From Pararhizobium qamdonense (lineage in GTDB: Bacteria; Pseudomonadota; Alphaproteobacteria; Rhizobiales; Rhizobiaceae), in assembly GCF_029277445.1 (NCBI RefSeq), contig NZ_CP119567.1, positions 434,001 through 498,000 of the forward strand: DNA of 64,000 bases, written 5' to 3'. Shown here in pieces: positions 1,719-5,605 of the stretch (within the stretch, counting starts at the first letter, position 1; each line of letters opens with the position of its first letter). The position numbers and the translations under genes are program-made. Under the pieces are notes generated by a model that saw nothing but the letters and a program-made list of their open reading frames with translations, did no database searches and was not told the DNA's origin.

Positions 1719-3580
1719 TCACGAGGGAGATCGGCCGTTGCGGATCTGCACGACGCTATCCTGACGCGCGCCTGTTTCGCTGGCGACCGGCGACATGGTG
1801 GCCTCAACCTGCGCCATTGGCGCGCTCAATCGCAGGTTGAGGCCAGTTGGGCGATAGGCCACATCCACCGTTCCAAATGCGCTGAGGCTTGAGGCAATCA
1901 ACCGCGAACCAAAGCCCTTGCGCTCGGGAGCGACAACCGTGGGGCCATTCATCTCCACCCAGCTGAACTGGAATGTCTTTTCATCGTCTGCGTAAACAAC
2001 CGACCAATCGATCTCGACGCGCCCTTCGTCGTTCGAAAGCGCGCCGTATTTAACAGCGTTCGTCATCAACTCGTGCAGTACAAGGCCGAACGACATGGCT
2101 ACCTGTGGTCCTAGAACCACTTTGGAACCTCGAACCTGAACGCGGCCGCTGTCCTGCATGCCCATATTGCGAACGGTATTATCGACGACGTCTCTCATTG
2201 CTGCGCCGCGCCAATCGTCCTGGGTCAACACATCGTGCGCTTTGGACAGTGCCGTCAGACGCGATTGAAGCTTTTCGCCGGCTTCTTTGACCGAAGAGGC
2301 ATTCCGCAACGACTGCGCCGCGATCGCTTGCACGACGGCAAGCGTGTTTTTGACGCGATGAGCCAGCTCATGCATCAACATATGCTGGGTTTCTTCCGCT
2401 TTCTTCCGCTCGGTGATTTCCACCGCCGCACCTGAAAACCTCACAGGTTCGCCGGTGGCGTCGCGAATGAGGCGACCTCTTGCATGCACCCAACGAACCC
2501 CTCCGTCTGGCTGGACGATACGATATTCGGCGGAGAAGGTTGGCTGACCCGCGAAAACGCGAGCGAGTTCTGCCTCAAAAGCAGGCATGTCGTCGGGATG
2601 GAAATTGCGGATATATTCTTCCAGCGGCGCTCCTGCGGATGCTCTGTCTGGTGAAACGGTGTAGATTTCCGCAAAGTTGGGGTCGGCGTAAATCAGGTTT
2701 TCAGGTCCCAGTCCCAGATGCCGACCATTGTGGATGCGCCAAGAGCCGATTGCAGGCGCTCCTCGCTTCTGGCCAACTTCTCCTGCATCGCCTTAAGGTC
2801 GGTGATATCCAGCGAAACGCCGCTCATAAAGGCAGCCTGGCCACGATTGTCGTTCACCAACTGACCGCGCACAAGTACCCAAGACACCCTGCCGTCAGAG
2901 CGAACGATCCGGTACTGGATATCGTAGCCTATGCCAGTTGCAAGCGTTTCGCGCACAGCCGCCTGCATGCGGGACAGATCGTCCGGGTGTATAACACTGA
3001 TGAGTTCGTCGTAGGTAAAAGCTTCGTTCTCGTCGCGTCCAAAGTTTTTTTTGCACACATCGGATGCCTCCAGAACCATCGTCTTGAGATCAAGCTCCCA
3101 GTATCCAAGGCTCCCCGCCTTCAACGTGTCCTTCATTCGACGCTCAGAACGCAAGGCGGCCTCTTCAGCCTTTCTGGTCCCCGTAATATCGCGTGATATG
3201 GACAAAATGCGGTCTGGACTGCCGTCAGGCCCGAAGATCGGAGAGACTTTCACCTCCCACCATCGCGGATTGCCTTTCGCGGTGTCCGCCGTTCCGATGA
3301 AGGTGTGGCTCTTGCCTGCTCTCGCAAAATCCAGGGCCTCTTTGGCAGCCTCGTTCCCTTCGTCTTTCCAGAAATCTGGCCAGGGGCATCCGCGGATGGT
3401 GTCGAAGTCATCGACCTCCATCACCCGCATTCCACCTACGCTCATAAAGCTCAGGTTTCCGTCGAGACCGATCACCTTGATGCAATCGTCGGACGCCGAC
3501 AGAATTTCGGCCATCAGCGTCGCGTCAACAGCAGTCTGTTCGAATGGCGCAGCGGGAAGGCGAGGGGCCGCGCCGCTCAT
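1719..3580 (-). pseudogene. PAS-PAS-PAS-HWE sensor histidine kinase, frameshifted
   Basis: Two adjacent reading frames together encode one HWE-family sensor kinase of about 620 aa. The upstream frame (3580 to 2693) carries two PAS domains and the start of a third, ending WDWDLKT-stop. The downstream frame continues the same PAS fold (NLIYADPNF, then IRNFHPDDM) and then the HWE core: HELAHRVKN phospho-acceptor box, LHELMTNAVKYG N-box, and the WVE signature. Adding one A to the AAAA run at 2698-2701 (minus strand) restores WDWDLKNLIYADPNF. Either this is a true one-base deletion or a homopolymer sequencing error. No transmembrane segment is visible, so it would be a cytoplasmic sensor. The start at 3580 is an ATG within a frame that also offers a TTG at 3598. 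If the stop is real, a 295-residue PAS-only protein would be made. Confidence 0.8.
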
Positions 3581-3759
3581 ATTGTTGCCGGAGGGCAAAG
3601 TATCGGGAACGTCGTCGCGAAATTCATCATTGGCCGTTTCATCTCATGGTTAGCCAGAGCCAGGAACTGCAGCCCCTTCCAGGTAGAAGCGGCCGCATTC
3701 GAAGTCAATTAAAGCATAACATAGCTCAGTCATTTTTCGGGATGCACGCGTCTACTACT

Positions 3760-4182
3760 TCAAGCCGATCCCCGGGGGCCGACGATGATACTTGGAGGCA
3801 CCGTGAGATTGACGTCTCCACGGAGAAGACGCGCAATATAGCTGAGGGCGTTTTGAAGCCCGTTCATCGTATAGGGCTTCTCAATCACACCGATTGCACC
3901 AACAAAATCATCCGGTACCCGTTTAAGGTTTCCGGTTACGAACACATAAGGGATACCCCGCTCCGCAAGGTGTCTGCCGACGTCGATCCCGGTCGGGCCA
4001 TCCGTTAAGTGAACGTCCACGAACGCAAACTCGGGCACCTGCCGCTCCAGAATTGCCATTGCCTGTTTCTCACTCATGGCCTGGCCGATGACGGAGTGCC
4101 CGGCTGCCTCGACTTCTTCCTCGAGTTCGAGTGCGAGCAGGGCCTCGTCTTCGACGATCATGATTTTCAAACGGCGCTCCAT
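3760..4182 (-). CDS. Single-domain response regulator (receiver only)
   Basis: A 140-aa stand-alone receiver with no output domain. The acidic pocket is E11-D12, the phospho-acceptor is D56 in FVDVHL, the switch Thr is T83 in FVTGN, and the conserved Lys is K102 in EKPY. Its ATG comes one base after the stop of the LOV kinase gene, so the two are co-transcribed and probably translationally coupled. That makes it the likely partner, or a phosphate sink, of the LOV protein and possibly of the HWE kinase next door. Related single-domain regulators feed the general stress response in alphaproteobacteria. That role here is inference. Confidence 0.88.
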   Translation of the reverse strand: MERRLKIMIVEDEALLALELEEEVEAAGHSVIGQAMSEKQAMAILERQVPEFAFVDVHLTDGPTGIDVGRHLAERGIPYVFVTGNLKRVPDDFVGAIGVIEKPYTMNGLQNALSYIARLLRGDVNLTVPPSIIVGPRGSA

Positions 4183-4183
4183 G

Positions 4184-5293
4184 TCAATGATCCACCATCA
4201 GCGTGACGCGGACGATTGTCTCCCGCCCTCGGATTTCACGATGGATTTCCGCCTCGACCTGACGGCAGCAGGTCTCCAGCATAAGCCGTCCGAAGTCGTC
4301 GTCTTCTGGATTGACGGCAACTGGATCGGCAGTGTCTCTGACCTCGATCAGGAAATGTCCATTCGGCTGATTGACCGTCAGGTGAATTTGACCGCCGCCG
4401 TCCCGTAATCCCCGGCGCACGGCGTCGCCGATCAGCTCGTTGACAATGAGTGCGAGCGGGGAGGCTTTTGCAGCAGGAACGAGGACGGGAGCAAGCTCCA
4501 TCGTAATTTGGATATCGTTGCGTCGGAGTGATCCGACAAGGTCTACGACGAGATCGCGGGCGAAGTCAGCAACGTCGAAACGGGCTACGTCGTGTGCCGT
4601 GAAGAGCTTCCGTTGAACCGTGCTGAGGGCCTCGACCCTGTTCAGGACCGAGAGAAGTGTATGGCGCACCGTCTCATCTTTGGTTTTACGGGCCTGCAGT
4701 TTCACAATCGACGCGATGGTCAATAGGTTGTTTTTTACCCGGTGGTCCACCTCGTGGACAAGTGTGATCTTGGCGTCGAGTGCCTGGCTCAATTCGCTGG
4801 CTCGCGCGGCAACTTCGGCTTCGGCTTTTCTGCGGGCGGACGCCGTTTTCATCAGCTTGATCTTGTCGTCGGTGAAATCGAGTTGAGACGCGAAAAAATA
4901 GATCGCCTCGCCGCTTTCGTCGAAAACCGGACTAATGAAGAGAGCGTTCCAGAATATCGATCCATCCTTGCGATGGTTGACAATGTCGATCGCTATGGAG
5001 CGAAACTCGCTGATCGCTTCGGCAATTTTCTGGACAGATGCGCGATCGGTCTCCGGTCCTTGTAGAAAACGGCAATTGCGTCCGATCAGTTCGTCTGCGG
5101 CGTAGCCTGTCAGATCGCTAAACGCCTTATTGGAAAAAATGATCGGGTTATCATGCTGCCGGGGATCAGTGATGATCATTGGCATGCGGGTAGCCTTGAA
5201 CGCCGCCGCGAATGGGTCTTCCGATGGGTGTTCCGCAAGAAGTCTGTTTCCGGCGTTTTGCGCACCTCTTTTTGCCGAAACTTCGTCGTCCAT
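4184..5293 (-). CDS. LOV-domain sensor histidine kinase (HisKA_2 type), catalytic domain degenerate
   Basis: A 369-aa soluble blue-light sensor. Residues about 30-140 are a LOV domain with the flavin-adduct motif GRNCRFLQ; the reactive Cys is residue 74. An HisKA_2 dimerisation/phospho-acceptor box (DHRVKNNL) follows. The ATP-binding part is unusual: the N-box reads NELIGDAVRRG where NELVTNALKH is typical, and no clear DxGxG motif is seen (RDTADPVAV instead). Kinase activity is therefore doubtful. The start at 5293 is preferred over in-frame codons up to 5401 because AAAGG precedes it and because an EcfG-like promoter (5321-5345) lies inside the longer alternative. It is followed immediately by a receiver gene. 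Confidence 0.87.
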   Translation of the reverse strand: MDDEVSAKRGAQNAGNRLLAEHPSEDPFAAAFKATRMPMIITDPRQHDNPIIFSNKAFSDLTGYAADELIGRNCRFLQGPETDRASVQKIAEAISEFRSIAIDIVNHRKDGSIFWNALFISPVFDESGEAIYFFASQLDFTDDKIKLMKTASARRKAEAEVAARASELSQALDAKITLVHEVDHRVKNNLLTIASIVKLQARKTKDETVRHTLLSVLNRVEALSTVQRKLFTAHDVARFDVADFARDLVVDLVGSLRRNDIQITMELAPVLVPAAKASPLALIVNELIGDAVRRGLRDGGGQIHLTVNQPNGHFLIEVRDTADPVAVNPEDDDFGRLMLETCCRQVEAEIHREIRGRETIVRVTLMVDH

Positions 5294-5320
5294 TAACACG
5301 CCTTTTGTGAATCCGTCGGT

Positions 5321-5345
5321 AACGCGCAGGAATGTGAAATGTTCC
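5321..5345 (-). promoter_or_regulatory. Sigma-EcfG-like promoter of the LOV kinase operon
   Basis: Read on the minus strand this is GGAAC, 16 bases, then CGTT. This matches the alphaproteobacterial general-stress promoter (GGAAC-N16/17-CGTT). Transcription would begin near 5312, about 20 bases before the ATG at 5293. The match is exact in both boxes, but it is a single short motif and was found by eye. Confidence 0.6.
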
Positions 5346-5605
5346 ACTCCCTGAATATGCATTTTGGCAGGTAGGAGAAAAAGCCGATTCGATGCAACCA
5401 ACTGCGATCAGTGCAGTAATTCTCGAAAAGCTCTCAGAAAATATATATACTTATAATAGTAAATTGTCAGGAATTCGTGGATGCCCGCGATGGCCGTTGA
5501 CACCGCTGAAATGGCCGCCCACGTAACTAGCTGGCGGATAATCGTGCTTTCACTCGTGGGGAAGTGTCTCCGTGTCGCGTGCAATCCGCCAATGGCGGAT
5601 ATTAC

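Follow-up and report, generated by a model that had tools for sequence, protein, structure and literature searches.

A Rhizobiaceae LOV photoreceptor lineage that has lost its ATP-site residues, a candidate light-gated phosphotransferase with a probable EcfG-type stress promoter

The two-gene locus described here encodes a LOV photoreceptor without the residues of its ATP site and a receiver partner, and we consider the pair, with a probability of about 0.64, to be a stress-induced, blue-light-gated histidine phosphotransferase/phosphatase, that is, a phosphate sink of the LovK-LovR type whose kinase half has been erased. The locus lies in a stretch of 64,000 nucleotides, called the window below (positions 434001-498000 of contig C2, in a genome of 6.24 Mb). 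The position of the promoter, the loss of ATP-site residues, the retention of the Cys, the His and the receiver, and the selection on the remnant domain can be read from sequence comparison. Its features, in window positions, are the following, counts of homologues referring to the best 120 of 4481 matches, query included:

5345-5321, minus strand: EcfG-type promoter GGAAC-ATTTCACATTCCTGCG-CGTT (N16), a motif match, 27 bases before ATG 5293
4184..5293, minus strand: P0001, LOV - HisKA_2 - degenerate CA protein of 369 aa, start ATG at 5293-5291
5072..5074, minus strand: codon of Cys74, the photo-adduct residue (GRNCRFLQ), C in 120 of 120
4742..4744, minus strand: codon of His184, the phospho-acceptor (HRVKN), H in 120 of 120
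4424..4426, minus strand: codon of Asp290, which replaces the Mg/ATP-binding N-box Asn, D in 118 and A in 2 of 120
4322..4336, minus strand: former G1 box DTADP, residues 320-324 (canonical DxGxG), G322 in 0 and G324 in 0 of 120
3760..4182, minus strand: P0002, single-domain response regulator of 140 aa, LovR/SdrG-like, with Glu11, Asp12, Asp56 and Lys102 present

We infer a phosphate flow with a direction, a light dependence and a sign of feedback, as follows. The two genes would form a stress-induced operon, transcribed when phosphorylated PhyR takes NepR away and EcfG is freed. The product would be a blue-light (or flavin-redox) sensor with a C-terminal half in which the phospho-accepting histidine is kept and ATP binding is lost; such a LOV protein would not phosphorylate itself, and its His184 would receive phosphate from receivers, which might be a regulator of the MrrA/SdrG type or the LovR-like partner itself. 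The phosphate would be passed on to, or removed from, the LovR-like partner, light would alter the rate of this transfer or removal, and on balance the stress response would probably be subject to negative feedback, as it is with Caulobacter LovK-LovR. If this is true, light sets the speed at which phosphate leaves the stress pathway, not that at which it enters.

Several published systems, cited here from excerpts of the sources, resemble parts of this scheme. In Caulobacter, phosphorylated MrrA is reported to donate phosphate to LovK and PhyK, and LovK to hand phosphate to LovR and to dephosphorylate LovR~P, the authors' conclusion being that LovK and PhyK are phosphotransfer proteins and that LovK-LovR is a SigT-controlled phosphate sink (PMC5964349). 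The excerpt describes no significant autophosphorylation of LovK, which one earlier study had reported (PMC5964349, PMC4438053). Flavin redox sensing was noted for Caulobacter LovK (PMC6530869) and may be an alternative input for the LOV protein of the window. Caulobacter LovK-LovR is like the window pair in joining a LOV-HisKA_2 protein to an adjoining single-domain regulator, there under sigma-T control, and the further likeness that we propose is that of a phosphotransfer protein and LovR phosphatase (PMC5964349, PMC4438053, PMC6530869). The CA domain of Caulobacter LovK, however, is well conserved by its description (PMC5964349), whereas the clade of the window protein lacks the ATP-site residues; the nearest named relative to Caulobacter LovK that was compared by sequence, from Brevundimonas (L083), is canonical.

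PhyT of Sphingomonas, whose ATPase domain is degenerate, is described as a phosphotransferase from SdrG to PhyR (PMC5898713). PhyT (PhyP) of Sphingomonas melonis shares with the window protein an HRxxN histidine (HRVKN at 184-188 in the window protein) beside a degenerate ATPase domain, and was proposed to be kinase-derived (PMC5898713). PhyT is a membrane protein whose gene belongs to the phyR locus, and the window protein has a LOV domain and its own adjoining receiver; here phyR, nepR and an ECF sigma gene adjoin one another, with phyR on C1 near 1.698 Mb, and the operon lies away from them, on C2 at 0.438 Mb. Brucella LOVHK, which is reported to autophosphorylate (PMC4438053), and the Erythrobacter LOV kinases share the LOV sensor, the HWE/HisKA_2 histidine region and the links to PhyR and LovR, but differ from the window protein in being active autokinases (PMC4438053). 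Likewise unlike the window, lovhk and lovR of B. abortus are described in the same excerpt as unlinked and without the sigma motif (PMC4438053).

The earlier note on this DNA had described the product as a LOV kinase with an intact LOV motif. The motif GRNCRFLQ is indeed intact, and Cys74, the flavin-contact residues Asn106, Asn116 and Gln137, and His184 are present in all of the best 120 of 4481 matches. The word kinase, by comparison, is unsupported, the ATP-site residues being lost in every clade member examined. Aligned with canonical homologues and with the solved blue-light kinase 4r39/4r3a, which we take to be EL346, the N-box NELxTNAxKH has become NELxGDAxRRG and the G1 box DxGxG has become DTxxP. 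The solved kinase retains the N-box Asn and both G1 glycines, and canonical relatives have N where the best 120 homologues have Asp or, in two of them, Ala. The G1-box Asp and the N-box Glu are retained in these best-listed homologues; two loci (L055, L058) have one G left in the G1 stretch, yet Asp in the N-box. Since the N-box Asn and both G1 glycines are lost in the best-listed homologues, the LOV protein is probably not a kinase, and ATP binding would be lost with them. The same Asn-to-Asp change is found in EnvZ N347D, residue 347 presumably being the N-box Asn, and this variant is called kinase-/phosphatase+, with reverse phosphotransfer, in the title of its source; it is, however, a HisKA kinase with one residue changed in the laboratory, whereas the window clade is a natural light-sensing family.

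Pfam profiles find in the 369 residues only PAS/LOV, HisKA_2/HWE and an ATPase match below the cut-off, HATPase_c scoring 15.7 bits (cut-off 26.4) versus 35.8 and 46.6 in two canonical relatives. The window protein also falls below the cut-off of the NCBIfam model for blue-light-activated histidine kinases (NF052306; 243 bits, cut-off 450). This was rejected as a sign of kinase loss, because five canonical LovK-type relatives miss the cut-off too (250-258) and the model covers another subfamily.

The LOV gene ends at 4184 and the receiver gene starts at 4182, with one base between them, and the operon with a single-domain regulator that the earlier note had pictured is borne out in the relatives: in 39 of 40 clade loci the LOV gene has a receiver gene directly downstream, the exception (L060) having a broken LOV frame. 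At least 93% of the receiver rows retain Glu11, Asp12, Asp56 and Lys102, the solved relatives of the receiver include the SdrG and PhyR receivers, and P0002 scores 201.6 bits with the response regulator subfamily NF009971 (cut-off 151). Both window proteins are 99% identical to their counterparts in Rhizobium sp. Root483D2. The nearest other receiver of the genome (C1:1599099, 39% identity) is preceded by the EcfG motif, 181 bp before its longest start, and would be a candidate MrrA/SdrG-type donor.

The gene neighbourhood bears on a different role, that of a non-catalytic partner, in which the LOV protein would form mixed dimers with an active HWE kinase, His184 being phosphorylated in trans, or would act by allosteric regulation of that kinase alone. 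We regard this as plausible, though unlikely. A second HWE kinase is found in the examined flanks of 15 of 40 loci (14 of 30 with longer flanks), as compared with 17 HWE matches for the entire genome of 6.2 Mb, and Caulobacter LovK is reported to bind the kinase SkaH, with unphosphorylatable LovK being active (PMC6530869). Nevertheless, the neighbour kinases are unlike one another in position, orientation and sequence (identity of 34-48% once L041 and L042 are set aside), that of the window is frame-broken, and the constant partner is the receiver, not a kinase. An obligatory neighbouring kinase was discarded as a general feature, being seen at those 15 loci only and in varied form. The frame-broken gene, which codes for a multi-PAS HWE kinase and adjoins the operon (window 1719-3598, minus strand), is interrupted near 2693, perhaps through recent loss or through an error of sequencing; in Root483D2 the copy (L041 7695-9578) reads through as a single frame of 627 aa.

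The phosphotransferase/phosphatase reading may extend to a whole group of proteins. Of 80 loci found, 47 were used (L041-L086 and L100), the other 33, mostly matches to the LOV part, being left out. In a tree of 56 rows, built without L060 (its frame is broken), L084-L086 (HWE proteins of another type) and L044 (a near-copy), the 36 rows whose ATP site is lost in the manner of the window protein cluster together, with support 100/100 and a stem of 1.18, in a group whose members are Rhizobiaceae wherever the family is named. The CA remnant of this clade is under purifying selection and is not decaying, since its median dN/dS over 28 pairs is 0.26 (LOV 0.20, DHp 0.19) and new states have been fixed (D290, R294 and G295 in 34 of 34 clade rows). 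Mean identity in the CA part is 60% within the clade versus 42% among the canonical rows, a set drawn from more families. L041, L044 and L060 were left out of the clade set of this test, and L081, L082, L084-L086 and L163-L167 out of the canonical one; the 28 canonical rows were picked after inspection of the boxes, so that their 28 of 28 is partly by construction.

HATPase_c is matched at E<=0.01 by 25 of 49 aligned members, of which only 5 are canonical, so at least 20 of 44 clade members carry a recognizable match; the ATPase fold thus probably persists in the clade, and the remnant may bind nucleotide weakly or in an unusual way. These matches, together with the weak one of the window protein, the retained domain order and histidine, and the active kinases reported among Brucella and Erythrobacter relatives (PMC4438053), would suit a normal LOV histidine kinase, with autophosphorylation in light and transfer to the receiver, whose ATP-site motifs are just unusual. 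We judge this distinctly improbable, given that the N-box Asn and both G1 glycines are gone from the best 120 of 4481 homologues and are kept by the aligned 4r39/4r3a.

The loss of the ATP site is not confined to the main clade. A sample of 151 genomes of the family contained 26 with a match at E<=1e-60, counting that of the window. Setting the latter aside leaves 25 loci: the boxes of the clade are seen in 10 (61-69% identity) and canonical boxes in 12, and in the remaining 3 (L164, L166, L167) the boxes were lost differently, as they were, in another way, in a locus of Paracoccus (L081). All four of these loci outside the main clade keep the histidine and a receiver downstream, and a further one on a very long branch (L082) has lost the boxes and has no receiver nearby. 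On a tree of 50 rows, ATP-site loss takes 4 changes, of which well supported branches force at least 3, and the ATP site has thus, by this tree, been lost in parallel in several LovK lines. We see an even chance that the Rhizobiaceae photoreceptor lineage as a whole is a light-gated phosphotransferase/phosphatase without kinase activity, in which case the site would have been lost in parallel because LovK-type proteins do not need it. One relative (L165) has Y at the column of the LOV cysteine. A clade member occurs in Rhizobium leguminosarum WSM1325 (L137); in the plasmid search, which covered the best 40 of 651 records, six were examined. A LOV-HK of R. leguminosarum has reportedly been studied before (Bonomi 2012, cited in PMC4844311).

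Transcription of the operon by EcfG, with the stress response of the cell, is very probable from the sequence context. The earlier note had placed GGAAC-N16-CGTT just upstream of the LOV start, in the right orientation and at the right distance, and the motif is present there (5345-5321, minus strand), with a transcription start expected, from the spacing, at about 5312-5314; the same motif was reported for R. etli EcfG1 in the excerpt of PMC3892343. The genome-wide scan suggested by that note as a measure of background gave no excess (N16/17, 133 matches versus 154 for the reversed control), and in the window the N15-18 pattern has 4 matches versus 2.29 expected, at least 4 occurring in 21 of 100 shuffles. 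The motif count was accordingly dropped as evidence for a promoter, and what makes the site convincing is its conserved position in relatives, the motif alone proving nothing.

This position was compared in 36 clade loci (the 40 minus 4 near-copies, L060 kept), with expectations computed from the remainder of the same loci. The 200 bp before the orthologous start contain the strict form in 9 of the 36 (0.08 expected); the looser GGAAC-N18/19-TT is there in 25 (0.72 expected). The looser form falls in the 23-bp zone from -70 to -48 at 22 of the 36 loci (0.084 expected), with differing spacers; the zone was chosen after a first look at the loci, which are related and hence do not make 36 independent cases. 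Neither form was found within 200 bp upstream in 11 of the 36 loci, the R. tropici group among them. A strict CGTT as a clade-wide rule was rejected, the ending being CATT in many relatives. Outside the clade, the strict motif also stands upstream of relatives at -49 (L139), -64 (L164) and -163 (L080), and near -100 in L068, L069, L158 and L160. That the site is a chance match, another sigma factor driving the operon, is very improbable, since the lack of excess in window and genome and the 11 loci without the motif stand against 25 related loci that have it within 200 bp and 22 that have it in one narrow zone. Clade members without the EcfG motif include L059, L062, L064 and L138 (R. tropici CIAT 899), and the operon of the last adjoins an ECF sigma/ChrR pair and is perhaps under a different sigma factor.

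The genome also holds the factors that such a promoter calls for, namely phyR, nepR and the adjacent ECF sigma gene, in agreement with the EcfG-type promoter of the earlier note. We take the sigma gene to be ecfG by its place next to phyR and nepR, since the model that it matched is named only RNA polymerase sigma factor. An EcfG motif is found 50 bp upstream of phyR as well.

The promoter was also held to decide the start codon, as a longer frame would run through it. In fact, the frame upstream of ATG 5293 is open to a TTG at 5401, and the annotated start of a database copy with 99% identity (P0003) adds 23 residues and takes the frame through the promoter, which makes a promoter-based choice of start of practical use. 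ATG 5293 is the best candidate start, as the N-terminal alignment begins at M1 in nearly all relatives and an in-frame stop lies upstream of the ATG and downstream of the promoter in L049 (39 bases) and L100 (15 bases).

Light sensing within the stress regulon, as the earlier note proposed it, agrees with the EcfG-type promoter but is not new, a LOV protein under a stress sigma factor being already described, in the excerpts, for Caulobacter lovK-lovR (PMC5964349, PMC4438053). Among the matches listed in the open-licence literature (titles and beginnings of abstracts), we found no report of a LOV photoreceptor clade that has lost its ATP site throughout. The clade is a natural test, in which the light sensor, the histidine, the receiver and, at most loci examined, the stress promoter are kept and the ATP-site residues are erased, and it makes the phosphotransfer model directly testable. 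Rhizobial and agrobacterial genes labelled histidine kinase or PAS protein may not encode kinases.

The general stress core itself seems to be duplicated in this genome, as suggested by two NepR matches (C1:1698709 and C1:3799910) and two receivers in PhyR-sized frames (C1:1697838 and C1:3800758, 268 and 265 aa), the first of which was confirmed as PhyR. Beside phyR there is an HWE protein (L131 3508-4602) with no HATPase match at E 0.05, and its catalytic half may therefore be atypical too, as in PhyT-type regulators. The second LOV protein of the genome (L133 2893-3957, on C3 near 429 kb) scores 526 with the NCBIfam blue-light kinase model (cut-off 450), and since it passes this model, there may be one active LOV kinase in the cell beside the LOV protein without an ATP site.
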